NCBI GenBank assembly: GCA_903915625.1
Contig: CAIWTN010000150.1
Location: forward strand, 1-50,216
DNA length: 50,216 bases
DNA from: an uncultured Pseudomonadota bacterium
Lineage (GTDB): Bacteria; Bdellovibrionota_B; Oligoflexia; Oligoflexales; CAIYRB01
Direction: 5' to 3'
Shown: positions 21,524 through 47,877 of the stretch, piece after piece
How the letters are laid out: each line of letters begins with the position of its first letter
How positions within the stretch are numbered: position 1 is the stretch's first letter
Translations under genes and position numbers: made by a program
The notes under the pieces: generated by a model
Databases searched by the model: none
Told to the model about the DNA's origin: nothing
The model's input: the letters and a program-made list of their open reading frames with translations, nothing else

Positions 21524-22303
21524 TTAACGACTCTGTGACTCAAGCCATGCCTTAGTGAACATATTCACATCCAGAGCATCAAGCTTTACATCTCTCAGCG
21601 CTACAGTAGTCGCATTGCCCTTCTCTACTTCATCAAAGACGCGAATTTCTTTTGGCACGTATACCTCTGCGCCCTTCGATTTGCTGAACATTTTCTCCCA
21701 ACTGGGATAGTAGCTCGTGCGCAGCAGCTTACCCGACAGCGCGAATTCCTGACGTTTCATGACATTTTTCTCGTTTTGATCGATCCAAATTTCCAACACA
21801 GGACTGGCAACTTCAAGACCAGGCTTAGCTGTCAGCTTCAGGTGATAGACCTTAAATCGACCTAAAGATTCATCGGCTACAAATACCGCCTCATACTCTT
21901 GAGCTAATCTAGACTGATCGAAATCATCGCGACGGCTATTAGTCCCGGCGATACTTGCACGTTCAGTCTGGCGTTCCCATTTACCGAGAGCAGGCTCGTA
22001 AAGAAACAAGTTCTTTTCGAGTCGCAAATAACCTTTCCCAGCTTCAGCCTTCGGTTTCGCAAACAAGATCATCCATTTATCATCACCATCTCGACGATAC
22101 ACGCGGGCTTCAAAAGCCTTACTGGATCCGTCTTTCGACTTCTGATCGATAAATACTATCGATGCATAATCACCAACGTTACGCTGCCTGGCATCTATCA
22201 AAGTAACTAATTCTTTGACCTCTTTATCAGTTAGGGCCGTTCCTACTTGAGCGAAAGAAAGAAGACTGAATAGTATCGACAATGAACCTAATATTTTTGT
22301 CAT
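21524..22303 (-). CDS. LolA-like outer-membrane lipoprotein-sorting protein
   Basis: This 259-residue protein has a signal peptide (residues 1-23) and a fold-level resemblance to LolA/LolB and the COG2834 group: the mature part has long beta strands such as KAFEARVYRRDGDDKWMIL, GYLRLEKNLFLYEP and VLEIWIDQNEKNVMKRQEFA. These periplasmic half-barrels hold acyl chains of lipoproteins or other lipids. It is the last gene of an operon with a LolD/MacB-type ATPase and two FtsX-like permeases, 13 bases after the second permease, so it is probably the periplasmic acceptor for that exporter. The substrate (lipoprotein, lipid or polyketide-like lipid) is unknown. It is not the housekeeping LolA by sequence alone. 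Confidence 0.8.
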   Translation of the reverse strand: MTKILGSLSILFSLLSFAQVGTALTDKEVKELVTLIDARQRNVGDYASIVFIDQKSKDGSSKAFEARVYRRDGDDKWMILFAKPKAEAGKGYLRLEKNLFLYEPALGKWERQTERASIAGTNSRRDDFDQSRLAQEYEAVFVADESLGRFKVYHLKLTAKPGLEVASPVLEIWIDQNEKNVMKRQEFALSGKLLRTSYYPSWEKMFSKSKGAEVYVPKEIRVFDEVEKGNATTVALRDVKLDALDVNMFTKAWLESQSR

Positions 22304-22316
22304 ACGATTAACTCCG

Positions 22317-25750: not shown

Positions 25751-26436
25751 GAATCTTGCCCCGTTACTACTTTGCCGTCCTTAAGACGAATAATCCGCCC
25801 TGCCTGACGCATCACCTGCGGATCATGCGTGGAAAAGATAAATGTCGTTTTATGAGTCCGATTAATTGTCTTCATGAGTTCAATGATTCGCTCGCCCGTT
25901 GCGGAATCAAGGTTCGCCGTGGGCTCATCCGCAAGCACAATACGCGGCCCGGTGACCAACGCCCTAGCGATCGCTACTCGTTGTCTCTGACCACCAGACA
26001 ATTCACTGGAACGCTGACCTTGCTGCGCCGTAAGATCTACCTCTGCAAGCAGTGCTGTGACCTTTTGCTGCCGTTCAGCACGGCTAAACCGCCCTTGCAA
26101 AAGCAGCGGAAACTCCACATTTTGAAATACTGTAAGGACGGGAATTAAGTTAAAGCTCTGAAAAATAAAGCCTAGCTTCTCCAGCCTTAGCTTCGTCAAC
26201 TCCCGATCACTCAGCTTAGCGATTGGGAGACCTTCGATATAGACCTCACCAGATGTTGGAACATCCATACAGCCTATGAGGTTCAGCAGGGTTGATTTAC
26301 CACAGCCGGATGGACCAGCAATCGTAGTAAACTCACCTTCCTGAATATCCATGTCGATACCAGACAGGGCATGAACCTGCGTCTTACCCAGAGGATAAAT
26401 CTTCTCGACACTAGAGATGCGAACCACGGCAGTCAT
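25747..26436 (-). CDS. LolD/MacB-type ABC transporter ATP-binding protein
   Basis: This 229-residue ATPase has Walker A GPSGCGKST (41-49), Q-loop in FIFQSFNLIPVLT, ABC signature LSGGQ (146-150), Walker B VLADEP (167-172) and the D-loop ANLDS, followed by the H-loop in STHDPQVM. The order and short length match the LolD/MacB/FtsE subfamily. It powers the two FtsX-like permeases encoded directly downstream (4-base overlap with the first). It is 18 bases downstream of the inactive M16 protease gene, so the peptidases may share its transcript. Confidence 0.95.
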   Translation of the reverse strand: MTAVVRISSVEKIYPLGKTQVHALSGIDMDIQEGEFTTIAGPSGCGKSTLLNLIGCMDVPTSGEVYIEGLPIAKLSDRELTKLRLEKLGFIFQSFNLIPVLTVFQNVEFPLLLQGRFSRAERQQKVTALLAEVDLTAQQGQRSSELSGGQRQRVAIARALVTGPRIVLADEPTANLDSATGERIIELMKTINRTHKTTFIFSTHDPQVMRQAGRIIRLKDGKVVTGQDS

Positions 26437-26454: not shown

Positions 26455-27858
26455 TTAGTCCTTAGCAGCAGTTTGCTTAATAAGGTCTAAGGCCCACTCG
26501 TCCTTGAACTGCTTACGACCAGCGATCACTCCAATGCGCAGATTACTCAGCCATTTATTGGCGAGACGCTTGATATCAGCGGGCGTCACCTTATCGAGCC
26601 GGCGCGGCATGTCGTAGTACTCATTGAAATCGCCGTAGAAGACGTCAGATGCTGCCAATGCTCCAGCTAAAGACGCATGAGTTTCCTGCGTCAAGTAATA
26701 ACTAGTCGCAAAACCACGTTTAAATTCTGCAAGCTCTTCGTCGCTGTAGGCTTTGGATTTAACTGTCGACAACACATCCTGGATTGCAACCAGCGTTGCC
26801 TCCGGCTTTGAGGTCGATACATTAATCACGCCCACCCCGATATTGTACTCAATAAGAAAGGCATGGACGGCATAGGACAAAGAGCGCTTAGTCCTGATCT
26901 CTTCACCTAATTCTTCACTGAGGATTTCATAAAGTAACCGCATGGCCACTGAATCTTCGTCATGAATCCCTGGGGCATTCATCTTCATCCGAATATATGC
27001 GGTGGGCAACTCACGGTCGTAAAATGCGTAGGCTTTAGCTGCGTCGAATTCTGGCACAGCGACTTCAACAGCTGGAGAGCTTGACGCTTTAACCCCGCCG
27101 AAAGCTTGATTTAAATCAGCAACTACCTTTGCTGCTGGCATCGAGGTAACGACCACTATATGGAGTTTATCCGCAGTGAGTATTTCTTTATGAAGTTTAA
27201 TTAAATCATCTCGGCCGAGACCGTCTAACTCCTTGAGAGCTTCATCATGATTGAGACGGTAAGGATGCCCTGGACGGTAGAAAATTGAATTTACGATCTC
27301 GTTAACATAGCTACCCGGATTACTCGGAGTATCCTTTAACTCGGCTTCAATTCTCTCTCGCGTCAAGGCGACATCTTCAGGGGTAAAACTCGGCTCCGTA
27401 AGCAAGGCAGCCATAAGCGGCAAAGCTTTAGACCAATATTCATTCAGAGTGCCAAGTCCACAGGCTGCATACTCAATACCGCCGCTGCACGCCATATCCA
27501 AACTATACTTCTCAGATAGTTGGTACACCTTCTGCTTAGGATATCCCTTGCCGGCCATGGGTAAGGCCATCCATAACCATTCGTTAAGCACTTTGCGACC
27601 TGGAGATAAATCTTTCAGACCGGAACTGAAAGTCACACCAAGTTGCACTATATCGGAATCCGGAATCTGCCTAACAATCACACTCATGCCGTTTTTCAAA
27701 TGATGACGGCTGGTAAGATCCTTCTGGATCTTGATCGATGCGTCCGAAACAAGTTGGTCTGCTGCCACTGCTAAAGGCGCAGTCACACAACTCAATGCCC
27801 CAGCTAAAAGACACTTTATAGCCAAGCTTAGATTCAGCCATTGGTACTTCATCGGCAC
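26455..27858 (-). CDS. M16-family peptidase homologue without the zinc motif
   Basis: This 467-residue protein has a signal peptide (about residues 1-32) and two M16-type halves. The position where active members carry HxxEH reads LNEWLWMAL, so zinc ligands are missing and it should be proteolytically inactive. The second half keeps the family features ELPTAYIRMKMNAPG and RTKRSLSYAVHAFL, the arginine-tyrosine segment that helps bind substrate in the partner's active site. In mitochondrial processing peptidase and in bacterial M16B pairs one subunit is inactive and the other holds the zinc; the active partner is encoded immediately upstream, 33 bases away. The pair probably works in the periplasm. 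Confidence 0.88.
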   Translation of the reverse strand: MPMKYQWLNLSLAIKCLLAGALSCVTAPLAVAADQLVSDASIKIQKDLTSRHHLKNGMSVIVRQIPDSDIVQLGVTFSSGLKDLSPGRKVLNEWLWMALPMAGKGYPKQKVYQLSEKYSLDMACSGGIEYAACGLGTLNEYWSKALPLMAALLTEPSFTPEDVALTRERIEAELKDTPSNPGSYVNEIVNSIFYRPGHPYRLNHDEALKELDGLGRDDLIKLHKEILTADKLHIVVVTSMPAAKVVADLNQAFGGVKASSSPAVEVAVPEFDAAKAYAFYDRELPTAYIRMKMNAPGIHDEDSVAMRLLYEILSEELGEEIRTKRSLSYAVHAFLIEYNIGVGVINVSTSKPEATLVAIQDVLSTVKSKAYSDEELAEFKRGFATSYYLTQETHASLAGALAASDVFYGDFNEYYDMPRRLDKVTPADIKRLANKWLSNLRIGVIAGRKQFKDEWALDLIKQTAAKD

Positions 27859-27891
27859 GCTCCTCTCGGCATGTTGTCACAAAATAGCTAC

Positions 27892-29352
27892 TTAACCTGG
27901 GCTAGCTGAGCTCTCGGGGGCCGTGTCGGCCGGGAGCTCCCTAGTTGCCGGACCCTTGTACATCTCAAGATACTTTTCTGCTAACGGGGCTGAAGTATCT
28001 TTGAGACCTACAGCACGTGCATCTTCGGGCGACAGCAAAACGCTATCGAGATGAGGCGCATTTAGTAACCAAGTCTTGACGCTGGCCCGGACATCTTTGA
28101 GCTTAACTTTGTCGATATTGGTCAAGTAACTGTCGTAGTAATCTAAGCCAGTGACGGCCCACCAAAATGCTAGTTCTTTAATAAACTCAGTCGGAGAATT
28201 CTGTTCACGCTTGCGATGTATCGTCATTTTGCGTTTAACATCGACCAGCTGGGCATCATTGAAATAACCAGGCTTAACCCACTCTTTGATCTCAGCTAGG
28301 AGCTGCTTTTGAACCTCTTTTGCGCGTTTTGGCGCAGCCGTGGCGTACAGGTCGATCTCGCCTGCTTGAGACTGAGTGTAATAGCTAAAGCCAGCTTCAT
28401 AAGCTAAGCCTGAGTCGACAAATTTTTGATAAAACTTGCCACCGCGATGCTCTAATAAATTAACCAATACGTCTAACGGATAAGTTTCTTTCGGTTGCTG
28501 GCGAACTTTTGGGCCATCAAACGTGCTTTGTATACGCACGTTCTGCACAATCGGTCTGGTCATAACAAAGCTAGTCGTTGCTGGAAATTTTGGAAACGCT
28601 GGTGGCTGCAATGGCTTCCATCCTTCCGGAGTGCGCCAATTGGCAAAATGTTTTTTTGCCAGCTTGGCTAAGTCCGCTGGAACGAAATCACCTCCTACTA
28701 AAAGCGCGCAATTAGCGGGCACGAAAACTTGATCCTTGATGCGTAGTAGTTGCTCGCGAGTAGCATTTGAAATAATCGGCGCAAGACCGAGCGGATCCCG
28801 ACGGTATCCAAGCGGTCCATAGATCATATTTCTCTGTAAATTCATAAAATCAAATGCAGGCTGAGCCGCATTTCGCTCGTACTCATTGAGCACCACCCGC
28901 CGCTCACGTTCCATCTCGCTCTGTTCAAGGAGCGGAGTGGCGATAGCGTCGGCCATAAACTGGAGCCCTTCTTCCAAGAAAACTGAAGGTAGGGTTATAA
29001 AGTACCGCACCTTCTCGGCTGAGGTATCACCATTATAGGTGATGCCGAGCTGCCGAATTCTCTTGTTGAATGCCTCTTGATTCGGCAATCGCTGGTTACC
29101 TTTGAAGAACATGTGTTCCCAAAGGTGAGTCAACCCGTTGCTATCTGCTGTTTCGGTCATGGCACCAGCTTTTGCAGCCAGCACAATAGTTACCAAAGGG
29201 ACCTTGTGTGACTCAAAGCCGACCAGTGTAAGGCCTGTGTCCATGGTTTGGGTAGAATATGCCTTAGACCCTGCAGCCTCGGCATTCACACTGAGAAGCA
29301 TCATCAATAAAGACAAAAGCCGTACCATGCGGTGCCTCCCTGCGCAAAACAC
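27892..29352 (-). CDS. M16-family zinc peptidase, active subunit
   Basis: This 486-residue protein has a signal peptide (residues 1-27) and the inverted zinc motif HLWEH (His76, Glu79, His80), followed by the third ligand in the MERERRVVLNEYER segment (about 147-160). The second half is the substrate-binding domain, with the family's R/Y pair in DSGLAYEAGFSYY. M16 peptidases enclose and degrade small peptides and unfolded proteins. It is the catalytic partner of the zinc-free subunit encoded downstream. It lies 21 bases after the Fe-S oxidoreductase gene, in a single run of genes on the minus strand. Confidence 0.93.
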   Translation of the reverse strand: MFCAGRHRMVRLLSLLMMLLSVNAEAAGSKAYSTQTMDTGLTLVGFESHKVPLVTIVLAAKAGAMTETADSNGLTHLWEHMFFKGNQRLPNQEAFNKRIRQLGITYNGDTSAEKVRYFITLPSVFLEEGLQFMADAIATPLLEQSEMERERRVVLNEYERNAAQPAFDFMNLQRNMIYGPLGYRRDPLGLAPIISNATREQLLRIKDQVFVPANCALLVGGDFVPADLAKLAKKHFANWRTPEGWKPLQPPAFPKFPATTSFVMTRPIVQNVRIQSTFDGPKVRQQPKETYPLDVLVNLLEHRGGKFYQKFVDSGLAYEAGFSYYTQSQAGEIDLYATAAPKRAKEVQKQLLAEIKEWVKPGYFNDAQLVDVKRKMTIHRKREQNSPTEFIKELAFWWAVTGLDYYDSYLTNIDKVKLKDVRASVKTWLLNAPHLDSVLLSPEDARAVGLKDTSAPLAEKYLEMYKGPATRELPADTAPESSASPG

Positions 29353-29373: not shown

Positions 29374-31425
29374 CTACTGTAACGAATCTGCAACAATTTC
29401 AGCGATATCTTTGACCACTACACTCTCGCCCTTGCCCTCAGATTTGACTCCGTCAGTCAGCATCGTCATACAGAAAGGACACGCAGTAGCTACGGTCGAT
29501 GCCCCTGTAGCGATAGCTTCTTTGGCCCGATTAATGTTGATGCGTGTACCCTGATTTTCTTCCAGCCACATACGCCCACCGCCAGCGCCGCAACAGAAAC
29601 CCGTTTCTCGACTGCGGGGCATTTCCTTGAGTTCAACTTTAGGCAGAGCTTTGAGAGCATTTCGCGGTTCATCGTAAACCTCGTTATGCCGACCCAAATA
29701 ACAGGAATCGTGGTAAGTCATCTGGGTCATTTCAGCCGGAACTTGCTGCGGCTTTATCTTTCCTTTAGTGCTGAGATCGCTGATCAGCTCACTATGATGA
29801 AGCACCTCTAGATTAACACCAAATTCAGGATATTCGTTTTTTAATGTGTTGAAGCAATGCGGGCATCCTGTGACGACTTTCTTCACTTGATACCGCTTGA
29901 AAGTCTCTACGTTGGCCTCGATCTGCATCTTTGCCAAATACTCGTTTCCAAGCCGCCTAGCTGTATCGCCGTTACACTGCTCCTCAGTCCCCAAAATGGA
30001 GAAGCTAACCCCTGCAGTCTGCATGATTTTAGCGATTGAGCGCGAAACTTTCTTATATCGCTCGTCATAGGACCCAGCGCAGCCAACCCAAAATAAGTAC
30101 TCGACATCGCTCTTATCGGCCATCGTCGTGATATTCTGCCCTTTAGCCCAATCAGCCCGCGTGGATGGGTCCATAGGCCACGGTGATGAGCTGGTCTCCA
30201 GACTTTTAAAGGTATTTGCCAGCTCAGCTGGAAAAGCGCCCTCTGTGAGGGTCAAATATCGGCGCATACCAACGATCGCAGGTATGTGTTCGATATAAAG
30301 CGGACATGCCTCCATACAGGCACCGCAGGTCGTACAAGACCAAAGTTCTTCCGGCGTCACAATCGCACCCTGCTCACCAATGAGCGGTGTACGCTGATCT
30401 TCGGGCACGCCATTGCTGACCTCAGCCACCGCTACTTTAAGGTGTTTCATAATCAACCGCGGGTCTAACGGCTTACCCGTATTGGTAGCTGGGCATTGTT
30501 CGGTGCAACGGCCGCACTCGACGCAAGTAATACCGTCGAGTAGCTGCTTCCAACTAAAATCCTTAACTTTACCAATACCAAAGCTCTCCGCATTTTCGTC
30601 AAATTCCAGAGACTTCAGTCGTCCACGTGCAGTCAAGCTACGCAGGAACATGTTGGGCCAAACCCAAATAAAATGCTGATGTTTCGACGACGGCAGGAAC
30701 ATCATGAATGAGAAAAGAACCAAACAATGCGCCCACCAAAATGACTTGCTTAAGATTTCCCATCCCTCGGTAGAGCTCACACCAAAAAGGCGACCTACTC
30801 CACCGCCGAAAAAGCGAGAGAACAGCAGTGGGCCTGCCGGCAACCCTTGCCCGCCTTCGATAAAGGTCTTCCCGCCCATGTAAATCAATGAGGTGACAAC
30901 CAGAGAGAGGATGAATCCAAGTACGATATACGCATCGACGCGGGAACCTTTTTCCAACTGCGATAGCCGCCATGGCTTGAACACCAAACGTCGAACAAAA
31001 GCCGCGACAATAGCGATGGCTACGACAAAGTTAGCGATATCCTGCGATGCCAAATAAAAGCTGTAGATGCCGCCATTACCCAGAATTAATTGAAAAGAAA
31101 ATGCCTCAAAAATGCCGTGCACCAGGGTTTCCAGAGTACCGACAGAGACAGTCACGAAGCCAAAGAAGATCATATAGTGCATGATCGCTGGCCCAATATC
31201 CTTCAACATCTTAGGTTGAAGGAAGCCGCCCTTAAGCATACCGAAGACGCGCTCAAACACGCGGTCTGTGCGGATATCATCAACGCCGACCCCGACGTGA
31301 ATCGTACCCCAGATCCGTCGCAGATTAACCGCCAAGAAGCTAAAGGATCCAAGGGCGAGCAGTGCAAAAATCAAATGAGGAATCAATGCCACGAGCGTCT
31401 CCTGATAAACTTCGAACGAACCCAT
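29374..31425 (-). CDS. Membrane-bound Fe-S oxidoreductase (HdrD/EtfD-like)
   Basis: This 683-residue protein has five or six N-terminal helices (residues about 12-250) resembling the NarI-type cytochrome b subunit, with histidines that may bind haem (His83, His103). Two [4Fe-4S] ferredoxin motifs follow: Cys301, Cys304, Cys307, Cys311 and Cys364, Cys367, Cys370, Cys374. Two CCG domains (about 440-680) come last; the first has EEQCNGD in place of CCG, which is usual for this subfamily, and the second has GFCCGAGGG. Relatives called EtfD or DUF224 proteins pass electrons from electron-transfer flavoprotein to the quinone pool during fatty-acid oxidation. No etfAB is next to it, so partner and donor are inferred. 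It could be linked functionally to the cytochrome operon 4 kb upstream. Confidence 0.9.
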
Positions 31426-35438: not shown

Positions 35439-38400
35439 TTAGCGTCTTTTTCCGCCACTAAATGAGAACTGATTATGACAGGTTTCACATTGTTCAAATC
35501 CACTCAGCTTGTGGTCTGGGAAAACGACCTTAACTGCATCCTGAATATGACAGCTTGCACAATCAGCTGATCGCCCCAGATACACCCCATTTGCGTGACA
35601 CTCCGAACATTCAAGCAACCTATGGGCGCCCCGAAGCGGAAACTGTGTCATCGAATGCTGAAAGCGCTGGGCTGACCAAAACTGCTGAGTATGACAATCA
35701 GCACAGTTAGGTTGTGACCCCAAGTGAGCGTCATCTTTCTGGTGGCAAACCTTACAATCATTAGCCGTGCCGGTCAGCTGACGCTTATTAGCATGGCATT
35801 CGTTGCATTCGAGTATGTAATGCACTCCAGTAAGCACAAAATCTTTATGGAAATCCGATGTTTTATCCCATCCAGTCTCGACATGGCACTGCGAGCACTT
35901 TTTACCGTACTGCCCTTTATGCGGATCTGCATGGCAAAGTGCGCAATCCTTGCTCTGAAGCTCGGCGAAAATGAAAGTACCCTTGTGATGACGCGGGGGC
36001 TCCTTAAATTTTTTCGCCGTCGGCTTGTGGCATTCCTCGCATTTAACTTTGAGATGCTTACCCTTTAAATCATATCTTGATTGATTGTGGTCGAATTTTA
36101 TCGGGGCATTGAAATGAACAGTCGAATGACACGTGCGACATGCTTGATTTGCAAACTTCGCATGGAACTGATCTTGGTGTTCATTCGAATGGCAGGCCTC
36201 ACAAAAACCAGTATTCTGGTGTTCGAACTGAAACAGTGATGCCGGCTTTGGCGGCTTTGTTGGCAAATTTTTCTGAGTTTTAATGTGGCATTCACCACAA
36301 TCATTTTTAATTTTTTGGTGTGATCCAGTGATCTGAAAGTCGGTTTGACTATGATCAAAAAGCTTTCTTTTTACAAAATCATCAGTCACATGGCAATCAA
36401 TACAAGGCTTTGAAGCAAATCGAGTGCTAAATTGTTCCTTGTGTACGTTAGAGTGACAACTTTCACAAAATCCGGTTTCCTTATGATCAAATATAAATTT
36501 TCCCGCAGGTCTTGGGGGAATTATCGGAAGCATCTTGTCGGTCTTGATGTGACACTTCACGCAGTCCACTTTGATCTTAGTGTGAGCACCCGTAATCTTG
36601 AACTGCGTGGTATTGTGATCAAACTGGTTTAAATCCTTAAAACTTTTTATATTATGACACTGCTGACAATTATCGCTTCGCGTCTGAGGATCGAATTGAT
36701 CCTTGTGTGGATTCTTATGACATTCCACACAATATCCCTCTTGCTGATGACCGAATATATATTTCCCTGCAGGGTGCGGCGGCTTCACCGGAAGCATTCG
36801 CTTTGTAGGTGTATGACATTTTACACATTGCTGCCCAATCTTCTGATGCGCATCGACAAGGTGAAACTGTGTTTTGTTATGATCGTATTTGAATATATCG
36901 GCGAATTTGGTCGTGTTATGACATTCGACGCAAGCCTGCTGAAGATACTTTGGCTGAAACTGTTCCTTATGCGGAGTCTTGTGACAATCCTCGCAGAATT
37001 GCGTTTTATCACCGGGGAATCGATAAATTTGCTTACCATCCTTAAGATGACAAGCAGCACATTTTAGGGGAACATGATTACCCGTCAAAGGAAATCGTGT
37101 CATCGTTGTGTGATTGAACCCAGCACCCGACGTTTGGGGCAAGATGTTCCAACCCTTAGTCGTGTGACAGGCTGAGCATTTGCTAGTTTTAAAAACCGGG
37201 TTCTTCGCAGGATCATGCGGGCTTTTATGACAGGTCTCGCAGGTACGAGACTCAAGTTCAGGCAACGAGTAATCGCGCGCAGTATTAGGAGTACTACCTC
37301 CGGCGAGTGGCTTGTGGCACTCAAAGCACTTAACTCCAATATGCTTGCCATCTATAGGATACTTCGTATCGGTATTATGATTAAATTTAATAAAGCTCTT
37401 CCAGGCGATTTCGTTATGGCATGTTTGACACTGGGCCAGCATCCCCAGCTTGGGCGAAATCTGGCTACGAAATCCATGGTAGTCCTTATGACAGCCAGAA
37501 CACTGCGTACCAAGTCCAGTAAAATTAAAATCTTTTAATTTTGATACATGCTGTGGCTGCTTGTGACAGGCCACACACGGTTCTTTTGCATGCGCACCAC
37601 GGAGTACAAAGCCGGTGATGTCATGATTAAAGTTTGCAATTTTCCAGCTCTGCTGTCCGTGGCAGCTTTCACAGGCGCCACCCTTGAATTTGCCGTCTAA
37701 ATTCTCTTTATGAAAATCAGCATGACACGTTCGACAGCCCTCACGCTTCAACTCTGGAAAATTGTATTTAACGGATGACTTACCACGGGGCGCGTGACAT
37801 TCAGCACAACTAACCTTGGCATGAGCACCTGCCAGCGGATAACCGGTTTCCTTTTTGTGATCAAAAAATGCATCCTTCCAATTCTTATCCGAATGGCAAG
37901 CATTACAATCACGAGTTCCCCACTTAGGAGGGAAAGCATGAACATCATCTTTCTTGTGACAACTCACGCAGGAGCTATCCTGACCGAAAAAACGAGTATC
38001 ATTTCGACGCACTGGCTTCTCTGTGCGGCGCTCTGTGTGACACTTAGAGCATTCAACGCCTACGTGCCCTCCATTTAGTGCAAAGCCCGTTTTTTTGTGG
38101 TCGAACCCCTTCTGTTTAAAAGCAATTGCATTGAAGTCTCGCCCCTTATGATCGGAGTGGCAGCTCAGACAGGTACCCTTAGCTAACGCGTGGAATCCCG
38201 TCTTTCTCGCTATCGACTTCTTTATTTCAGTGTGACACTCCAGACACTTATTATCAGGAACGCCATTACCGGCGTCATGGCATTTTAAACAACCACCGTG
38301 TTCAAACTCTTTATGACCCTCCATCAACGGACCTGGTGCGAGCAAAGAATTAATCAGACCCTCCCCTGAGGGAATACTCTGGTCAACACCCTTGCCCTTA

Positions 38401-38474
38401 GCTGCTCCAGCATGAGCCCAATTGGGAAGTAGACAGCTTGTAACGAAGAAAAGCGCTAGGATCCGGTTTTTCAC
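35439..38474 (-). CDS. Secreted multihaem c-type cytochrome with 36 CxxCH motifs
   Basis: This 1011-residue protein has a signal peptide (residues 1-22, cleavage after AHA) and 36 CxxCH haem-binding motifs from Cys62 to Cys996, spread evenly at about one per 27 residues. No other domain is visible, so nearly the whole chain is haem-carrying. Many additional His residues (FDHN, GxH, HKxQF) could be the second axial ligands, giving bis-His haems of low potential. Residues 494-843 are four tandem units of 86-88 residues with three haems each. Such chains act as molecular wires. Its ATG overlaps the stop of the beta-barrel gene by 4 bases, and it is the last gene of the electron-transfer operon. 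It is probably periplasmic or on the cell surface. The usual MtrC/OmcA folds have ten haems; this is far larger. Confidence 0.96.
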   Translation of the reverse strand: MKNRILALFFVTSCLLPNWAHAGAAKGKGVDQSIPSGEGLINSLLAPGPLMEGHKEFEHGGCLKCHDAGNGVPDNKCLECHTEIKKSIARKTGFHALAKGTCLSCHSDHKGRDFNAIAFKQKGFDHKKTGFALNGGHVGVECSKCHTERRTEKPVRRNDTRFFGQDSSCVSCHKKDDVHAFPPKWGTRDCNACHSDKNWKDAFFDHKKETGYPLAGAHAKVSCAECHAPRGKSSVKYNFPELKREGCRTCHADFHKENLDGKFKGGACESCHGQQSWKIANFNHDITGFVLRGAHAKEPCVACHKQPQHVSKLKDFNFTGLGTQCSGCHKDYHGFRSQISPKLGMLAQCQTCHNEIAWKSFIKFNHNTDTKYPIDGKHIGVKCFECHKPLAGGSTPNTARDYSLPELESRTCETCHKSPHDPAKNPVFKTSKCSACHTTKGWNILPQTSGAGFNHTTMTRFPLTGNHVPLKCAACHLKDGKQIYRFPGDKTQFCEDCHKTPHKEQFQPKYLQQACVECHNTTKFADIFKYDHNKTQFHLVDAHQKIGQQCVKCHTPTKRMLPVKPPHPAGKYIFGHQQEGYCVECHKNPHKDQFDPQTRSDNCQQCHNIKSFKDLNQFDHNTTQFKITGAHTKIKVDCVKCHIKTDKMLPIIPPRPAGKFIFDHKETGFCESCHSNVHKEQFSTRFASKPCIDCHVTDDFVKRKLFDHSQTDFQITGSHQKIKNDCGECHIKTQKNLPTKPPKPASLFQFEHQNTGFCEACHSNEHQDQFHAKFANQACRTCHSTVHFNAPIKFDHNQSRYDLKGKHLKVKCEECHKPTAKKFKEPPRHHKGTFIFAELQSKDCALCHADPHKGQYGKKCSQCHVETGWDKTSDFHKDFVLTGVHYILECNECHANKRQLTGTANDCKVCHQKDDAHLGSQPNCADCHTQQFWSAQRFQHSMTQFPLRGAHRLLECSECHANGVYLGRSADCASCHIQDAVKVVFPDHKLSGFEQCETCHNQFSFSGGKRR
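35946..36995 (-). repeat. Four tandem 88-residue trihaem units within the 36-haem cytochrome gene
   Basis: Cysteines that open equivalent motifs fall at residues 494, 582, 670 and 758, exactly 88 residues (264 bases) apart, and the next at 844 (86). Each unit has three CxxCH motifs at the same offsets (for example 494, 515, 550 and 582, 603, 638) and shares the pattern CxxCHxxxHKxQF, FDHNxTxFxxxGxH, and a KMLPxxPPxPAGKFIF-type linker. The pattern shows growth of the gene by internal duplication. Confidence 0.9.
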
Positions 38475-39895
38475 AAGATGCGCTCCAATCTCGGGGCTGT
38501 GTCTCGCATTGGCGTCAACTGCCGATGATTTATTCGGTAACCCAGACTTAACAGGAAACTCAGCACCGAAGCCTGCTCATCGCGCGCGGACTCCAACATA
38601 ATCGATCCCATGAGTTGCCTGTTGAACATGGAAGAGGCCTCAAGATCGATGATCAGGGGATGAAGCTTGACGCCAGTATCTCTGTTTTGAGTGGTATACT
38701 GGGCACTACTAGATATCGACGTACTACTTGCGTAGTAGGTCACACCAGCTTTTGTAAAAATGTCGTTACTAATAAAATTCTTCCGGTAACCTGCCCCACC
38801 AAAGACTGTGAGATGGCCACGCAGTAACCCAGTTGCAACGACTTTCCCGCCTACCAGCGCCTGATTCTTTCCGTCATTGCCACGTATACCGTAGGTCGTC
38901 TCACCGACCACAGCATACTGATTACTCAATTTCCACCGAGCATCGCCGCCAACTTGAGTGTAGGCACTAGGAGGCAAGCGATCGAGAAGATCACGACGGC
39001 GCTGATACTCCGTCAAATTCAGATGGATGATCCCGAGAGTACCAATAAAATGCGGGGAAATCGGCTCGTAAAGAGAAGCCCAAAGATTTCGTACGCGCAA
39101 AGATGGTTGAATATCGACATGCGACTGGTAGCTTAAGCGTTGGCCATTTTCATATTGCCTAATCGCATTAGCATACCAGAACAAATAATTCCCAATGGGA
39201 TGATCTGGTGGGAGGGTCGGAGATTGGCCGGGAAGTGTACTTCCTGATAATGGAGCTGCTGGATTGTCCAAAGACTCAATGTCAGTGACTGCTTTCCGCA
39301 TCACAAGGCTCGTGGCGGCGTAGGTATGGCTCTCACCAGCACGCCCCAAATCCTCATAAACTCCGTAGGCTCCAACCTGCCGATCTTCCTCAGTAAGCCT
39401 CAATGAACGGTTGCTTCGGTGTTCAGGGTACAGACCACCGAAAAAGGCGACACGGCTGTTGGCATTCAATTTATAGCCACCCTCGACCCCATCGTTACCC
39501 AGCACAGAGGCATCTGCAGCTACAAAACGGCCGAGCGACCAGAACAAAGCCCCACTACTTGGCGGGGACTTCAGGGCTAGCTGACGCAGTTGAGGCTCAT
39601 TGGCCTGCACCAAACGTCCCAGCGTTGGTTCAACGCGGCCAAAGGAATCATATTTGTCTCGAGCATCCACTATTACTTCGAGATTATCAGACCCTATCCT
39701 AGTCACATCGACGTAGACTCGAGCTAAAGTGAGAAATGCGTCATTTTCGCGAGATCCCGAATCAGTCGTATTGAGATTCTCTCTGGCTGCGTAAACACCT
39801 AAATTAAGTCGTCCGGTATACTCATAGGCCAGTGCTGGCGTCGATAATACCGACGCAAACATAGACAACAGCGATGAGATACGAAACAACATCAA
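38471..39895 (-). CDS. Outer-membrane beta-barrel, putative porin of the cytochrome conduit
   Basis: This 474-residue protein has a signal peptide (residues 1-23, ALA|YE) and alternating strands with aromatic belts, for example YTGRLNLGVYA, DAFLTLARVYVDVTRIG, FIGTLGIIHLNLTEYQ, HLTVFGGAGYRKNF and SVLSFLLSLGYRIN. It has no haem motif. Its start follows the tetrahaem lipoprotein gene by 19 bases, and its stop overlaps the 36-haem cytochrome start by 4 bases, so the three are co-translated. By analogy with MtrB, PioB and the Geobacter porin-cytochrome complexes, it likely forms the sheath through which a cytochrome spans the outer membrane. It does not obviously match any of those barrels in sequence, so this role is inferred from context. 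Confidence 0.78.
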   Translation of the reverse strand: MMLFRISSLLSMFASVLSTPALAYEYTGRLNLGVYAARENLNTTDSGSRENDAFLTLARVYVDVTRIGSDNLEVIVDARDKYDSFGRVEPTLGRLVQANEPQLRQLALKSPPSSGALFWSLGRFVAADASVLGNDGVEGGYKLNANSRVAFFGGLYPEHRSNRSLRLTEEDRQVGAYGVYEDLGRAGESHTYAATSLVMRKAVTDIESLDNPAAPLSGSTLPGQSPTLPPDHPIGNYLFWYANAIRQYENGQRLSYQSHVDIQPSLRVRNLWASLYEPISPHFIGTLGIIHLNLTEYQRRRDLLDRLPPSAYTQVGGDARWKLSNQYAVVGETTYGIRGNDGKNQALVGGKVVATGLLRGHLTVFGGAGYRKNFISNDIFTKAGVTYYASSTSISSSAQYTTQNRDTGVKLHPLIIDLEASSMFNRQLMGSIMLESARDEQASVLSFLLSLGYRINHRQLTPMRDTAPRLERIL

Positions 39896-39914
39896 TGCTC
39901 GTGTTAGTTGTCAG

Positions 39915-40331
39915 CTATGGCACCAGAAAATTCGGCAGCAAATTAGTCCCTGCTCCAGTGGAAAAACTCGTTGTATTGTGACATGAGACACAATCAGTCT
40001 TTTGCGGATGTGGGTCTGCCGGACGCTGCTGAGCATGGCACTCATTGCATGAACTCGGCTTTGGGGTGTGCTTGAATGGCTTAAGAGGTAACCACCCAGA
40101 TCTATCGTCTTTTGGTGTGTGACAACGAACGCACTCTCCGCCCGCACCATGAATTTCATCATCTATTGGAGCCGGCCTTTGCGACTCATGACAAGCAGAA
40201 CAAGTGTTGCTGCCAAGAAATTCCGCATGCTCAAATTTTGGGGTGACAGACTGCGACGCACCTATACCTGGGGTACGCACTAAACATGCGGTAAGACAAC
40301 CGGCCACAACTATCACAACGACACATCTCAT
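39915..40331 (-). CDS. Tetrahaem c-type cytochrome lipoprotein
   Basis: This 138-residue protein has a lipoprotein signal (lipobox LTAC, Cys16) and four CxxCH motifs: CSACH, CVRCH, CNECH and CVSCH. It is small, like cytochromes c3/c7, and the histidines between the motifs could serve as distal ligands. The mature protein should be anchored in the inner or outer membrane leaflet and act as a periplasmic shuttle or wire. Its start overlaps the oxidoreductase stop by 4 bases and it lies just upstream of the beta-barrel gene. In the proposed chain it would carry electrons between the inner-membrane oxidoreductase and the barrel with the 36-haem cytochrome. Confidence 0.92.
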   Translation of the reverse strand: MRCVVVIVVAGCLTACLVRTPGIGASQSVTPKFEHAEFLGSNTCSACHESQRPAPIDDEIHGAGGECVRCHTPKDDRSGWLPLKPFKHTPKPSSCNECHAQQRPADPHPQKTDCVSCHNTTSFSTGAGTNLLPNFLVP

Positions 40332-41680
40332 TTCCTTCGCAACCTTTCACCAAACTTCTTTTCAATTTTGATCCCTAGTCCCTTCAGAAAGGTCGCAGGA
40401 ATCTCGGCACCGGCAAATATAAAAACATAGCTATTATTCATTTTCACCTGACTGCCACCATAATCGACCATTATATGCATTGGGTGAATAGAGGAAATGG
40501 AACTCTCAAATAGGATCCAAATTTTTCCTTTTAGAGCTAGTGCATTCACAGCGTCAATATTCTCTTGATTAGCTCTGTTAAAGGACTTACTACGAACAAG
40601 CAATGTTACACGATTTTTCAATGCTGGATTTGCTAACTGTAGAGCCGCTTCAACAGCAGCATTACCACCACCTACAATTGCAATGTCGCGGCGACGATAT
40701 TGTTCGGGCTCCAGCAAATTATAAGTGACCTTCGGGAGTTCCTCGCCAGGCACGTTAATTTTCCTAGCCGTACCCCGCACGCCCATCGCTAAAATCACTT
40801 TCTTAGCTGTCAGCACACCAAGCGAAGTTTCCACAGTGAAGACATCATTATTTTTTGAAAGGTTGATAAACTTACAACCCTCTCGAATTTTTAGGCGGTA
40901 TTTTTTCCGTATTTTACTCCAGTAACTTAAAAGCTCCTCTTTCGAAACTTTATTACCCGCGAACTCCATTGCACCAACCATCGGCAGTTCAGCGGGCTGG
41001 GTCATGACTATCTTCTGACGGGGAAAATTATAGATAGTCCCGCCCACACTGTTTTGTTCAATGCATGCGTAGTTAATGCGACCCTGCACCGCAGCCAGTG
41101 CTGCCGATAATCCCGCTGAGCCAGCTCCGACGATGAGAAGATCTAAATCTGCCGAGATATTCGGCGACAGAGTCGAGATCGCATGCGCTGCCGCCATTTT
41201 CCCTTGACGCACCGCATTTCGAATTAAGCCCATGCCACCCAGTTCACCTGCGATATAGAGACCTTTAATATTGGTTTCATAATTAGTCGTGATCCGAGGA
41301 AGTTCCATCCCCCTTCGCTTCGTACCGAAGACCAAATCAATTGCACCAAACGGACAAGCGACTTCACACTGACCATGTCCGACACACATGTTTGGTTTTA
41401 CAAGTACAGCCCTGTGGTTAATAATCTGCAGAATTTCACCTTCAGGGCATGCCTTAACACATGCCGTGCATCCAGTGCACCGCGCTGCATCAATCTCTGG
41501 ATGTAGGGTCGTTGGTTCGATAAGGTCGTTGGCGACTGTGGCCTTAAATGCTTGAACTGCCCTTTGTTGATCTAGCCTACGCCGTCTGACGCTCCAATAT
41601 GCCATGGCTCCGACAAGGGCAAACCCCACCGGAGCGACAATTTTAGCCATATATATTGAAAGCAGACTCCAGAAGTGCAT
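40328..41680 (-). CDS. Membrane-anchored FAD-dependent oxidoreductase with two Fe-S cluster motifs
   Basis: This 450-residue protein has an N-terminal hydrophobic helix (about 10-30), a ferredoxin-like domain (about 60-115) and a thioredoxin-reductase-like flavoprotein domain (about 178-450). The first cluster motif is complete: Cys68, Cys71, Cys74, Cys78. The second is CVGHGQC-x3-CP (Cys99, His102, Cys105, Cys109), with His where a Cys is usual, a variant common in this type. The dinucleotide loops are VGAGSAGLSAAL (FAD) and VGGGNAAVEAAL (NAD(P)H). The CxxC redox pair of thioredoxin reductase is missing, so electrons probably leave through the Fe-S clusters. It begins the cytochrome operon and would feed electrons from NAD(P)H to the cytochromes, or run in reverse. 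Confidence 0.88.
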   Translation of the reverse strand: MHFWSLLSIYMAKIVAPVGFALVGAMAYWSVRRRRLDQQRAVQAFKATVANDLIEPTTLHPEIDAARCTGCTACVKACPEGEILQIINHRAVLVKPNMCVGHGQCEVACPFGAIDLVFGTKRRGMELPRITTNYETNIKGLYIAGELGGMGLIRNAVRQGKMAAAHAISTLSPNISADLDLLIVGAGSAGLSAALAAVQGRINYACIEQNSVGGTIYNFPRQKIVMTQPAELPMVGAMEFAGNKVSKEELLSYWSKIRKKYRLKIREGCKFINLSKNNDVFTVETSLGVLTAKKVILAMGVRGTARKINVPGEELPKVTYNLLEPEQYRRRDIAIVGGGNAAVEAALQLANPALKNRVTLLVRSKSFNRANQENIDAVNALALKGKIWILFESSISSIHPMHIMVDYGGSQVKMNNSYVFIFAGAEIPATFLKGLGIKIEKKFGERLRRK

Positions 41681-43822: not shown

Positions 43823-44000
43823 TCTAGAATGAAATTTTCTATTCGGGTTTAAATTAACGAAAAAATTGGCGTATTTAGACATACTTTAACAACGATAAAA
43901 ACAGTTAGATCACAGTTCCTAGTGTGAAATGTTACTATTAAAGAAGCCACTTACCGCCGAAAATTTTCCCCGCTAAGAAGTGTAACTTCCATTGATAAAA

Positions 44001-44435
44001 ATGCTCCGAAAACTGCTGACCATAGCGGTAACTCCCCGAGTTGCGGTTGGTTCAGATATTGTCTGGGTTCCTGACATTAGGGAATCAGTTCAGCAATTCG
44101 GGGAACGCTATCTGAGGTTCATTTTCACAGAAAAAGAGATCGCGAACTGCACGAGAAACAAAGAAGACATTTCTTGTTGGGGATTAGCCGCCCGCTTTGC
44201 AGCCAAGGAGGCTACTATGAAATTGTTACGGCCCGACCGCGACCAACTTCTACCGTGGCGGTCCATCGAAGTAGTGCAGAGTCTAAATGGGGCTGTAAAT
44301 ATAAAGCTGCATGAACCCGCTTCCCGAATGGCGGATGCCGCCGGTATCGACCAGATAACCTTGAGTATGAGTCATGAACGCGACTACGCAACCGCGGTAG
44401 TCGTCGGTATCGGCAAAGCCACCTACCAACAGTAA
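44001..44435 (+). CDS. acpS: AcpS-type holo-acyl-carrier-protein synthase
   Basis: This 144-residue protein is a phosphopantetheinyl transferase of the AcpS type, which moves the 4'-phosphopantetheine arm from CoA to a serine of a carrier protein. Motifs VGSDIVWVPDI, FTEKEI and AARFAAKEATMKLL are present, including the magnesium-binding Asp and Glu. I chose ATG at 44001; a TTG at 43992 in frame is also possible. It lies 64 bases upstream of a carrier-protein gene. It may be the cell's general AcpS or a dedicated enzyme of this cluster. The 178-base upstream gap is AT-rich and likely holds the promoter, but I see no clear -35/-10 pair. Confidence 0.88.
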   Translation: MLRKLLTIAVTPRVAVGSDIVWVPDIRESVQQFGERYLRFIFTEKEIANCTRNKEDISCWGLAARFAAKEATMKLLRPDRDQLLPWRSIEVVQSLNGAVNIKLHEPASRMADAAGIDQITLSMSHERDYATAVVVGIGKATYQQ

Positions 44436-44499
44436 TTAACATCCACTAGGGACAATTAGCGTTTAATACAAAAAAATTCCCAAATTAAGGAGTGGAAAC

Positions 44500-44739
44500 A
44501 TGGAAGGAAAGATTCGGCAAATCCTAAAAGACCATGGGCGGCTTTCCGTCGATACGACCACTCTGGGCGTTGATTCTGACCTTTACCAGGCAGGTATGAC
44601 TTCTCATGCAAGCGTAAACGTTATGTTGGCGTTAGAGGGAGAATTCGATATTGAATTTCCTGATCGCATGCTCAAGCGAAGCGTCTTTGAAAGCATCTCA
44701 GCAATTCAGACTGCAATTTCAGAGCTAAAAACTAACTAG
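44500..44739 (+). CDS. Stand-alone carrier protein
   Basis: This 79-residue acidic protein has the acyl-carrier fold: DLYQAGMTSHASVNVMLALE with the phosphopantetheine-accepting Ser35, then FDIEFPDRML and a final helix with FESISAIQTAI. The usual DSL motif is replaced by TSH, as in carrier proteins paired with amino acid:[carrier protein] ligases. A GGAG ribosome-binding site lies about 8 bases before the ATG. In this cluster it should receive an amino acid as a thioester. It is distinct from the fatty-acid ACP by sequence and neighbourhood. Confidence 0.88.
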   Translation: MEGKIRQILKDHGRLSVDTTTLGVDSDLYQAGMTSHASVNVMLALEGEFDIEFPDRMLKRSVFESISAIQTAISELKTN

Positions 44740-44796
44740 ACAATCATATCCAGTGCAATAAGACCTATTAATTCACCATCAGCGGAGACTGATGCC

Positions 44797-45966
44797 TTGA
44801 CGAAATCCGCGACGTCATCATTGATAGAAATCGCTCGCAGCATTGGTCAGAACATTGCCGGACCTGCGGCTAATGACGTCGACGAAAAGGCCAGATTTCC
44901 GATCGAAGCACTAAATGCAATGAAAGAGCAAAGCCTACTTAGTGCCTACATACCCCAATACCTAGGCGGAGCGGGTGCAAGTCTCAGAGATCTCGCTATG
45001 ATCTCAGAAGAACTAGGCCGTCACTGCGGCGCCACTGCGATGATCTTTGCCATGCATCAAATCCAGGTAGCTTGCATCGTACATCATGCAGTCGACCGGG
45101 AGTATTTTAGAAATTATCTAAGCGACCTGGTTCACAATCAGCATCTAATCGGATCAGTCACCTCTGAATTGGGGGTGGGGGGCGAGATGCGATCAAGCAT
45201 CTGCGCCATCGAGGAGGAGGCTGAAAATTTTATCCTAGTGAAGGACAGCACCACTAGCTCTTATGGAGCCTACGCCGACGATCTTTTAGTTACAGCGAGA
45301 AAGTCGCCTTCATCACCTGCAAACGATCAGGTGCTCGTGCTGGTAAAAAAGGGCGATTTCACAATGGCCCAAAACGGCAACTGGAACCCCATGGGTATGC
45401 GGGGAACTTGCAGCGCTCCGTTCAAATTAACGTCAAAGGGGAACATCGACCAGATATTGAAAGTCCCTTTTTCAACAATTTCCAGCCACACCATGGTTCC
45501 GGTTTCACACTTTGTCTGGGCGGGCACATGGGTAGGCACAGCCCGAGCTGCTGTCAGCAAGGCGCGCGCATTTGTCCGAGGTCAGGCCCGCGCAAAGCCG
45601 GGGACTGTGCCACCTACAGCCTTGCGGTTAGCTGAAGTAGTGCCTCTACTCCAACTGCTAAGAACCTCAACCGATGCCTTACTAAGCGAATACGAACGCT
45701 TAATTTCATCATATCCACCGAGTGAAGAACTTTCATCTATTTCATACGCCTTAAAACTAAATAATCTCAAACTTTCTGGATCAGAACTTATTGTAGAAAT
45801 CGCCAACCGCGCCCTAAATATTTGCGGTGTAGCTGGCTACAAAAACGACTCAAAGTTTTCTCTTGGTCGAGTTCTTCGCGATGCTCACGCGGCTGCTCTG
45901 ATGGTCGGAAATGACCGCATACTTCATACCAATGCTGGGATGCTTCTAGTTTTAAAAGACGACTAA
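44797..45966 (+). CDS. Acyl-CoA dehydrogenase-like flavoprotein
   Basis: This 389-residue protein starts with TTG, preceded by a CGGAG site. It follows the acyl-CoA dehydrogenase layout: helical N-terminal domain (about 1-115), beta domain (about 120-230; GSVTSELGVGGEMRSS replaces the usual T-E-x-x-x-GS form) and C-terminal helices (about 240-389). At the end, where dehydrogenases have the catalytic Glu in YEGT, it reads LMVGNDRILHTNA, so that Glu is missing. It is likely FAD-dependent and may act on an aminoacyl-carrier-protein thioester, as do PltE and RedW on prolyl thioesters, or as an oxygenase of the DszC type. It lies between the carrier protein and the ligase that charges it. Confidence 0.85.
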   Translation: MTKSATSSLIEIARSIGQNIAGPAANDVDEKARFPIEALNAMKEQSLLSAYIPQYLGGAGASLRDLAMISEELGRHCGATAMIFAMHQIQVACIVHHAVDREYFRNYLSDLVHNQHLIGSVTSELGVGGEMRSSICAIEEEAENFILVKDSTTSSYGAYADDLLVTARKSPSSPANDQVLVLVKKGDFTMAQNGNWNPMGMRGTCSAPFKLTSKGNIDQILKVPFSTISSHTMVPVSHFVWAGTWVGTARAAVSKARAFVRGQARAKPGTVPPTALRLAEVVPLLQLLRTSTDALLSEYERLISSYPPSEELSSISYALKLNNLKLSGSELIVEIANRALNICGVAGYKNDSKFSLGRVLRDAHAAALMVGNDRILHTNAGMLLVLKDD

Positions 45967-45988
45967 AAAGTTACGAGGTAATGAATTC

Positions 45989-46900
45989 ATGACTCCAGAG
46001 TTCTCTTCAAAAAGCCTTTACGACGACCTAGTGAAATTTGGACACATCATCCCAGTCGGTGTACCAGGTATTTTCGGACGCGGCGCGATATTTGAAGATA
46101 TTCTGACTCGCTTCGAAGCAGCTGTAGGCCGACTTGCTGCGAGTGACCATGCAACCAAGGTACACTTCCCCCCCTGCATCAATCGGCAGATACTTCAAAA
46201 AAGTCTCTATATTGACTCCTTCCCGCAACTGAGTGGAACTGTATTTAGCTTTACTGGAAACGACGCTGCTCATCGCGAACTTAGCAGCCGCCTGAAAGAT
46301 GACAAGCCATGGGGCGATTTGCAGACGATGACTGATTGCTGCCTAACTCCAGCAGCTTGCTACCCAGTATATCCAACGTTCACCGGTACTCTTCCGACTG
46401 ATGGCGCGCTAGTTGACGTTCAGAACTGGGTATTTCGCCATGAACCGTCTGACGAACCGACCCGAATGCAGGCCTTTCGAGTTCACGAGTATGTCCGTCT
46501 AGGGACCACAGATGTCGTAGTAGCCTGGCGCGACCTGTGGCTTCAACGTGGACTGGATATCCTTCTCTCGCTGGGGCTAGCGGTTAAGGCAGAAGTAGCG
46601 ACCGACCCATTCTTTGGTCGTGGAGGGCGAATGCTCGCGGCAAACCAGCGTGAGCAAAAACTAAAATTTGAGGTTGTTTGCCCGGTCATATCAGCCGAGA
46701 AGCCTACGGCACTTTGCTCTTTCAATTATCACCAGGATAAATTCGGCACCATCTTCAACATCAAAACGTCAACGGGCGAAACAGCTGACACAGCTTGCCT
46801 CGGATTTGGCCTCGAACGAATCGTCATGGCACTACTCAAAACTCACGGCATGGATCCGGGTAGTTGGCCAAAACCGGTGCGCGAGGTCCTCTGGACATGA
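45989..46900 (+). CDS. Amino acid:[carrier protein] ligase (class II aaRS-like)
   Basis: This 303-residue protein is related to the catalytic core of atypical seryl-tRNA synthetases but has no tRNA-binding domain. It matches the amino acid:[carrier protein] ligases described from Bradyrhizobium and Agrobacterium, which activate glycine or alanine and attach it to the phosphopantetheine arm of a carrier protein. Class II motif 2 (FRVHEYVRLGTTD, about 163-175) and motif 3 (LGFGLERIVMAL, about 271-282) are visible. The three likely zinc ligands are Cys124 (PAACYP), Glu167 and Cys270. The ligand set indicates amino-acid rather than serine-tRNA chemistry. Its stop overlaps the next start by 4 bases. 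The amino acid used cannot be read from sequence. Confidence 0.9.
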   Translation: MTPEFSSKSLYDDLVKFGHIIPVGVPGIFGRGAIFEDILTRFEAAVGRLAASDHATKVHFPPCINRQILQKSLYIDSFPQLSGTVFSFTGNDAAHRELSSRLKDDKPWGDLQTMTDCCLTPAACYPVYPTFTGTLPTDGALVDVQNWVFRHEPSDEPTRMQAFRVHEYVRLGTTDVVVAWRDLWLQRGLDILLSLGLAVKAEVATDPFFGRGGRMLAANQREQKLKFEVVCPVISAEKPTALCSFNYHQDKFGTIFNIKTSTGETADTACLGFGLERIVMALLKTHGMDPGSWPKPVREVLWT

Positions 46901-47877
46901 GCACTTACTGCTTCAGCTCAATAAATCCACAGAACTACGTGCCACACGAGCTTCATCGCCTCGAACGGGCATGGACAGAGACAAACTGCTATGTAGATGT
47001 CTGGATTGAGATTCTCAATACAAAGGGATTGGACCCAGCGGCTTGTCTATCGATGGTGCTGGCCGTTGATTTTGACGGAGATCAGTGGACTTTTTTCAAA
47101 CCACCACATGAGGATCTCTTCGAACTTTATGGAGTTGATGTCCAGGAACTAAACGTCTGGCGAACGTTGATCGAGAACACTATTGAACAGCTTAGCCGAG
47201 GTCGCTTGGTACTAGCAGAGACTGACGCTTTTTATTTACCAGACACTTCTGGAACGGATTACCGGACAAAGCACACAAAGACCACCATCGGAATCCAGGA
47301 AATCGATCTCAAAAATCAAACCCTGGGTTACTTTCACAATGCCGGTTACTACCGCTTGTCTGGCGAAGACTTCGTTAAATTGTTACGGATTGACTCACCT
47401 AACGACCCAACACACATGCCGTTTTTCGCGGAGTTCATCCGCTTCGATCGACTTACTCATCGGAACTCAAAGGAACTAGCCGCGATTTCAAAAACCCTGG
47501 CGAAGAAGCACTGGGAGCGACGACCCCGCACCAATCCGATCCGCCAATTCACACCGCGCTTCTTACGTGACGTGGAGGCACTAAAGGCCGAGGGCCTTGC
47601 CAGTTTCCACGCATATGCATTCGCAACATTAAGGCAAATCGGTGCAGCTTTTGAATTAGCTGGATACTACTTATCTTGGTTAGGACAGCACGGGCAGCTT
47701 AGTCACACAGGAATGGTGCTTGAAAGTGAGCGCATCTCGACGACTACCAAATCGCTATTAATGAAAACAGCCAGAGCCGTCAATACCAAGCGCGAAGTTG
47801 AACTAACACCCATGCTTGATGAGCTTTCCATCAGCTGGGACTCACTGATGATCGCTTTACATCAAGAATTCACTTAA
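46897..47877 (+). CDS. DUF1839-family protein
   Basis: This 326-residue protein is a DUF1839 family member, a family found next to amino acid:[carrier protein] ligases. The ATG at 46897 overlaps the ligase stop by 4 bases and is the likely start. Visible sequence: NPQNYVPHELHRLERAWTET near the N-terminus, DFDGDQWTFFKPPHEDLFEL, then DTSGTDYRTKHTKTTIGIQ. No signal peptide, membrane helix or cofactor motif is evident. The conserved context suggests it handles the aminoacyl-carrier product, for example by transferring it to an acceptor, but this is inference only. Its stop overlaps the next gene's ATG by one base (TAATG). Confidence 0.85.
   Translation: MSTYCFSSINPQNYVPHELHRLERAWTETNCYVDVWIEILNTKGLDPAACLSMVLAVDFDGDQWTFFKPPHEDLFELYGVDVQELNVWRTLIENTIEQLSRGRLVLAETDAFYLPDTSGTDYRTKHTKTTIGIQEIDLKNQTLGYFHNAGYYRLSGEDFVKLLRIDSPNDPTHMPFFAEFIRFDRLTHRNSKELAAISKTLAKKHWERRPRTNPIRQFTPRFLRDVEALKAEGLASFHAYAFATLRQIGAAFELAGYYLSWLGQHGQLSHTGMVLESERISTTTKSLLMKTARAVNTKREVELTPMLDELSISWDSLMIALHQEFT

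Follow-up and report, generated by a model that had tools for sequence, protein, structure and literature searches.

A predicted PCC3-type electron conduit with an NADPH-type flavoprotein in an uncultured member of the Oligoflexales

We analysed a 50,216-nucleotide stretch of DNA (the window; contig CAIWTN010000150.1 of assembly GCA_903915625.1) from an uncultured bacterium of the Bdellovibrionota_B lineage, whose genome is a 4.4-Mb metagenome-assembled genome (MAG) of 252 contigs. Four consecutive genes within it encode a membrane-anchored flavoprotein, a tetrahaem lipoprotein, an outer-membrane-type beta-barrel and a 36-haem cytochrome. Homology and gene order suggest that this operon specifies a trans-envelope electron conduit of the PCC3 type with its cytoplasmic end included, a reading to which we assign a probability of roughly 0.6. 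PCC3 is a putative porin-cytochrome complex described in 2017 by He et al. and found in iron oxidisers; it comprises a porin, an extracellular cytochrome (median 34 haems), a periplasmic cytochrome (median 21) and an inner-membrane protein (PMC5566968). It has also been treated in Gallionellaceae (PMC10734462). The published cluster has four genes and lacks the flavoprotein, whereas the window operon includes it. Judged from sequence comparisons, the flavoprotein is a constant partner and a fifth component of PCC3, new with respect to the published descriptions.

The operon and its products

All four open reading frames lie on the minus strand. They and their predicted parts are as follows (aa, amino acids; TrxR, thioredoxin reductase).

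40328..41680, minus strand: flavoprotein (450 aa) with an N-terminal inner-membrane helix, two [4Fe-4S] motifs and a TrxR/YpdA-like FAD and NAD(P)H domain
41609..41665, minus strand: predicted transmembrane anchor of the flavoprotein (residues 6-24, RRRR on the cytoplasmic side), from hydropathy
41339..41503, minus strand: ferredoxin-like domain with two cluster motifs (residues ~60-114), from a Fer4_10 match and an alignment of homologues
40355..41143, minus strand: FAD/NAD(P)H oxidoreductase domain (residues ~180-442), from GxGxxA and the conserved Arg pair R363/R369
39915..40331, minus strand: tetrahaem lipoprotein (138 aa) with an LTAC lipobox, resembling the tetrahaem head at the N-terminus of extracellular lipoprotein cytochromes of PCC3
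38471..39895, minus strand: predicted PCC3-type outer-membrane porin (474 aa), a 22-strand barrel, from hhalign, AlphaFold2 (pLDDT 74) and Foldseek
35439..38474, minus strand: 36-haem c-type cytochrome (1011 aa) with a signal peptide and 12 trihaem repeats, a homologue of the PCC3 periplasmic cytochrome
35475..38291, minus strand: 36 CxxCH motifs grouped by threes into 12 units, the majority of which close with an FDHxxTxFxLxGxH-type segment before the next CxxCH

A first-pass annotation of this DNA had described a four-gene operon with overlapping genes, and its reading frames and junctions were confirmed. Neighbouring conduit genes overlap by 4 bases at 40328-40331 and at 38471-38474, and the tetrahaem and barrel genes are separated by 19 bases (22 if the barrel gene starts at the ATG that follows the TTG). 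Its haem counts were exact, with 36 CxxCH motifs in the 1011-aa product, 4 in the 138-aa product and 0 in the other two. The ratio of nonsynonymous to synonymous substitution rates (dN/dS) against the sister species (G005) was 0.075 for the flavoprotein, 0.099 for the tetrahaem lipoprotein, 0.121 for the barrel and 0.062 for the 36-haem protein, and all four genes are under purifying selection. These low ratios, together with a gene order kept in relatives, indicate that the four genes are real. A promoter and terminator scan gave matches near chance expectation.

Homology identifies the 36-haem protein as a PCC3 periplasmic cytochrome expanded to 12 trihaem units. By extrapolation from MtrA, at about 100 angstrom for 10 haems, it would make a wire some 300 angstrom long. 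With the haem motifs masked, its hidden Markov model score was 178 bits against the PCC3 periplasmic profile and 61 against the extracellular one, and its assignment as the extracellular cytochrome was rejected on these scores. The earlier view of this protein as a secreted outer wire thus gave way to a periplasmic type, with the tetrahaem lipoprotein as the probable extracellular partner. The haem number of PCC3 periplasmic cytochromes is mostly 18, 21 or 24, with 20 in Bacteroidota; relatives of the 36-haem protein have 24, 27 or 33, all multiples of three. A sequence search of the PDB with this protein returned nothing useful. The cytochromes of the conduit are presumably loaded with haem, and haem insertion is plausible since the source genome encodes three cytochrome c assembly proteins (PF01578).

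The tetrahaem lipoprotein looks like a reduced PCC3 extracellular cytochrome in which only the head is present, and it is presumably located at the cell surface. PCC3 extracellular cytochromes usually carry at least 10 haems. A 37-haem lipoprotein (L066:11377-14274) has the same four-haem N-terminal layout followed by Thr/Gly-rich repeats, and the head is common to intermediates with 8 (L065) and 20 haems (L063). Taken together, the two cytochrome assignments would invert the usual PCC3 sizes, with a long periplasmic wire (36 haems against the median of 21) and a minimal surface cytochrome (4 against 34).

The 474-aa product, for which an outer-membrane-type barrel had been proposed, gave a 22-strand model whose Foldseek matches were outer-membrane barrels, all of them generic large barrels with the FimD usher as the best. 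It had no match in Pfam or NCBIfam. In hhalign, with alignments spanning ~420 columns, it reached 97.1% (E 7e-11) against PCC3-type porins of Bacteroidota/Ignavibacteria, 94.5% against a short class of these porins and 73.8% (E 2.9e-5) against those of Gammaproteobacteria. Controls with reversed profiles and with another putative outer-membrane protein of the window stayed below 1%. The window porin differs from other PCC3 porins in having no periplasmic domain: the N-terminal AMIN/TPR or SH3-like part found in them is missing.

The flavoprotein matched Pyr_redox_3 (9e-41) and Fer4 in Pfam and has a single N-terminal hydrophobic helix, in agreement with the anchored FAD/2x[4Fe-4S] enzyme of the first-pass annotation. 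Because the helix is followed by RRRR, the positive-inside rule would place the catalytic part in the cytoplasm. The second cluster motif reads CxGHGxCxxxCP, with His replacing the second Cys, and its positions C99, H102, C105 and C109 are invariant in 96 homologues, as is R369. In the first motif, the second Cys is replaced by Ser or Thr in 20 of the 96 (e.g., L053:10103-11398 and L056:7216-8499). The best named relatives, at 50-56% identity, were from Bacteriovoracaceae, Bdellovibrionaceae and Oligoflexia MAGs (Bdellovibrionota-type).

Profiles and solved structures placed the flavin domain nearest to YpdA/Bdr, thioredoxin reductase and TrxR-like ferredoxin-NADP reductase. The closest of these, the bacillithiol disulphide reductase YpdA/Bdr, differs from the window flavoprotein, to which a membrane anchor and a ferredoxin domain are added; the score against TIGR04018 (YpdA/Bdr) was 169 bits, below the cut-off of 340. 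In TrxR-family enzymes, an Arg pair after GxGxxA marks a preference for NADPH, and by analogy R363/R369 point to NADPH as the probable partner of the flavoprotein. In four gammaproteobacterial loci (L077, L095, L107, L137), a ~650-790-aa protein with Sel1 and ankyrin repeats is encoded directly downstream of the flavoprotein gene.

The flavoprotein and the PCC3 inner-membrane protein

The two proteins co-occur closely. Among 250 genomes of Burkholderiales (the order of the Rhodocyclales MAG G134), the flavoprotein and a strong match to the inner-membrane protein (E <1e-60) were present in the same 14 (Fisher's test, p = 4e-21), as divergent neighbours in every one. All seven Burkholderiales loci that were opened encode the inner-membrane protein, a 24-haem cytochrome and then a cytochrome with 11-62 haems, and the PCC3 porin comes next in the six (6/6) that extend far enough. 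Two weaker inner-membrane matches (E ~1e-32) were without the flavoprotein and lay in a distinct 10-haem cluster. A distantly related inner-membrane protein with the HX13H motif, encoded at loci L151 and L152, stands by two 10-haem cytochromes and large proteins, likewise without the flavoprotein; this is a different Burkholderiales conduit type.

In a set of 115 genomes sampled across the domain, the flavoprotein was present in 17, and 16 of these also encoded the inner-membrane protein (Fisher's test, p = 5e-15). It was encoded within the locus in 61 of 80 named flavoprotein loci from many phyla, with a median gap of 332 bases, and elsewhere in the genome in 11 of the 19 checked genomes whose locus lacked it. 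Full-text searches limited to open-access papers found the flavoprotein described in no PCC3 cluster.

The PCC3 inner-membrane protein has ~300 aa, five helices, two WX3HX13H motifs and SGxxG. Four His (H97/H111 and H255/H269) are invariant in 36 homologues from many phyla and form two H-x13-H pairs with SGxxGR between them; the same motif pairs were described for PCC3 by He et al. (PMC5566968). With haems assigned from the HX13H motif, the protein is predicted to be a dihaem cytochrome b. Its AlphaFold2 model had a pLDDT of 91, and a PDB sequence search returned nothing useful. In two distant genomes, the cytochrome b is fused to a polyferredoxin on the cytoplasmic side (L156:7510-9492 and L157:4857-6842, both plus strand), which suggests that it may take electrons from, or give them to, cytoplasmic Fe-S centres. 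Both fusions also have an N-terminal cyclic-nucleotide-binding-like domain, and in L156 cytochromes with 6 and 27 haems are encoded next. PCC4 (PMC5566968) similarly has an HX13H inner-membrane protein with an Fe-S protein adjacent or fused; however, its cytochromes carry 4, 5 and 10 haems and none is extracellular.

The flavoprotein and barrel genes stay linked to that of a 24-36-haem cytochrome in five congeners and in a second family of the order, often with the tetrahaem lipoprotein. The four genes thus co-occur in related genomes, and the proposal of a trans-envelope conduit tied to an NAD(P)H-type flavoprotein gained ground from this synteny and from the assignment of the barrel as a probable porin of a porin-cytochrome complex. 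A paralogous second operon is present in the genus as well (copy B; in the source genome on G000:C146, locus L041). It encodes a flavoprotein, a barrel and a cytochrome with 24 or 27 haems, and a gene for a 261-aa membrane protein lies upstream. In the flavoprotein tree, the window operon (copy A) and copy B form sister clades within the genus (support 0.90), and the family f6, which has a single copy, is placed next to them. As the single operon of f6 includes the membrane protein (286 aa), the window copy appears to be the duplicate from which this gene has been lost.

Each of the six congeneric genomes encodes exactly one PCC3 inner-membrane protein, at copy B; that of the source genome lies at G000:C146:53636-54412 (E 5e-115). 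It had initially been proposed that the composition of the operon differs from named systems and that the flavoprotein would be joined directly to the barrel and the long haem wire, with no inner-membrane redox step. The comparison supported neither proposal: every part is PCC3-like, with the porin and the trihaem-repeat periplasmic cytochrome homologous by profile or motif and the lipoprotein cytochrome a probable counterpart by its tetrahaem head, and relatives place the cytochrome b beside the flavoprotein, as does copy B in this genome. Since the inner-membrane protein is at a separate locus, absent from copy A and present in copy B, the window operon is a PCC3 variant rather than a standard member. 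Divergent from the copy-B operon and upstream of it, a monohaem CBB3-III-like lipoprotein is encoded (L041:9718-10083, plus strand), and this gene is kept in several congeners.

Proposed electron path and alternatives

In the proposed path, electrons from cytoplasmic NADPH would pass to FAD and the two Fe-S clusters of the anchored flavoprotein, and from there to the dihaem cytochrome b borrowed from the paralogous operon on G000:C146. The cytochrome b would reduce the 36-haem wire, which would span the periplasm and thread through the 22-strand porin, delivering electrons to the tetrahaem surface lipoprotein and an external acceptor. Flow could also be reversed, an external donor reducing NADP+. 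This is the simplest order that fits topology and homology, and the parts are presumably in physical contact. We propose the NADPH route as a replacement for, or an addition to, the published link to quinones, and our guess is that one cytochrome b serves both copies.

A broader claim, which we rate somewhat short of even odds, is that PCC3 would be a NOX-like, quinone-independent system carrying electrons from NADPH to the outside across many phyla, with two wires sharing one cytochrome b in this genus. In NOX/FRE proteins, a cytoplasmic NAD(P)H-FAD unit likewise feeds a membrane-bound dihaem cytochrome b that carries HX13H pairs, the gene for which lies outside the window in our case. The predicted conduit differs by its separate polypeptides, its TrxR-like flavin domain with Fe-S clusters and the onward transfer of electrons to c-haems, and it has no Pfam or Foldseek match to NOX/FRE above threshold.

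Several points weigh against the NADPH-fed conduit. Foldseek with the cytochrome b model matched no solved structure at E <0.6 and the Pfam Ferric_reduct match was below cut-off, so the NOX-like role is drawn from the HX13H motif; the assignment of NADPH is likewise drawn from family motifs. The cytochrome b gene was found in the copy-A operon in none of the six congeneric genomes. Profiles for the flavoprotein and the inner-membrane protein were built from linked loci and could favour linked relatives. The literature covered held no biochemistry on PCC3 or the flavoprotein.

A rather unlikely alternative is that the PCC3 conduit trades electrons with the quinone pool through the cytochrome b, with the flavoprotein as an accessory (in redox sensing, in the reduction of haem or thiols during cytochrome maturation or in cytochrome b protection, for instance) rather than the point of electron entry. 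He et al. drew the inner-membrane protein as acting on quinones (PMC5566968), and the nearest solved relatives of the flavoprotein include the thiol-disulphide reductases Bdr/YpdA and thioredoxin reductase. However, the flavoprotein has no CxxC active site, and disulphide chemistry needs no anchored domain with two Fe-S motifs. Direct transfer is favoured by an almost invariable pairing with the cytochrome b and by the natural cytochrome b/Fe-S fusions.

Electron uptake, with the wire reduced by extracellular donors and electrons flowing into the cell to reduce NADP+ for biosynthetic use, is unlikely. The occurrence of PCC3 in iron oxidisers (PMC5566968) speaks for it, as do the many flavoprotein carriers among Gammaproteobacteria from lithotroph-rich groups; against this, the path to NADPH runs uphill with no evident energy source. 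A second point against uptake is that in Sideroxydans lithotrophicus ES-1 both PCC3 clusters (Slit_0867-0870 and Slit_1446-1449) decrease on Fe(II) (PMC8788666), which also disfavours a simple Fe(II) oxidase role in that strain.

It is about equally doubtful that copy A, having lost the cytochrome b, is a duplicate that is now wired differently or has partly decayed, its 36-haem wire being reduced by the flavoprotein itself or by another quinol enzyme. This would account for a single cytochrome b per genome, in no congener within the copy-A operon, but dN/dS of 0.06-0.12 in all four genes and the retention by copy A of its own flavoprotein and the larger cytochrome argue against this reading.

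A complex of the MtrCAB/MtoAB type, which along with PioAB shares the principle of a cytochrome threaded through a porin, is very improbable: TIGR03508 (DmsE family decahaem) does match portions of the 36-haem sequence, but at 79.9 bits against a cut-off of 192.2, so that no MtrA-type decahaem protein stands above cut-off; the barrel aligns with PCC3 porins, is unrelated to the porin of those systems and has no MtrB/PioB-family match in Pfam or NCBIfam and no MtrB in the Foldseek top 50; and the set includes no CymA. The Geobacter OmbB-OmaB-OmcB and Ext conduits, compared by description, follow the same general plan with other haem counts and gene order.

Neighbouring genes and implications

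Genes for a LolA-like protein and an FtsX-type ABC permease lie a few kb from both conduit operons in this genus (window 21524-26436; L041:254-2414); they possibly form a lipoprotein exporter tied to the conduit, or their position is due to chance. Two M16-type peptidase genes stand side by side at 26455-29352 (minus strand). The gene at 29374-31425 (minus strand) encodes a heterodisulphide-reductase-like membrane protein that combines a [4Fe-4S] dicluster with two CCG domains; this gene is near the operon also in G003 and G004. Beyond the operon, 43992-47877 (plus strand) encodes an AcpS-like protein, an acyl-CoA dehydrogenase, a 303-aa protein with no Pfam match and a DUF1839 protein. We take the 303-aa protein to resemble class II aminoacyl-tRNA-synthetase-type amino acid:carrier-protein ligases.

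On present homology, the window operon is the Bdellovibrionota version of PCC3, and the finding on the flavoprotein reaches beyond the window. PCC3-like systems are extended to Bdellovibrionota-like genomes, Bacteroidota/Ignavibacteria, KSB1 and Nitrospirae, and the haem number of the periplasmic wire changes mostly in steps of three. For years PCC3 has figured as a putative complex for iron oxidation or electron uptake with a connection to quinones. The flavoprotein, as a near-obligate neighbour of the cytochrome b, points instead to the NAD(P)H pool and would explain how the inner-membrane protein is fed; it also offers a deletion target in cultured carriers of PCC3, for instance Sideroxydans or Leptothrix cholodnii.

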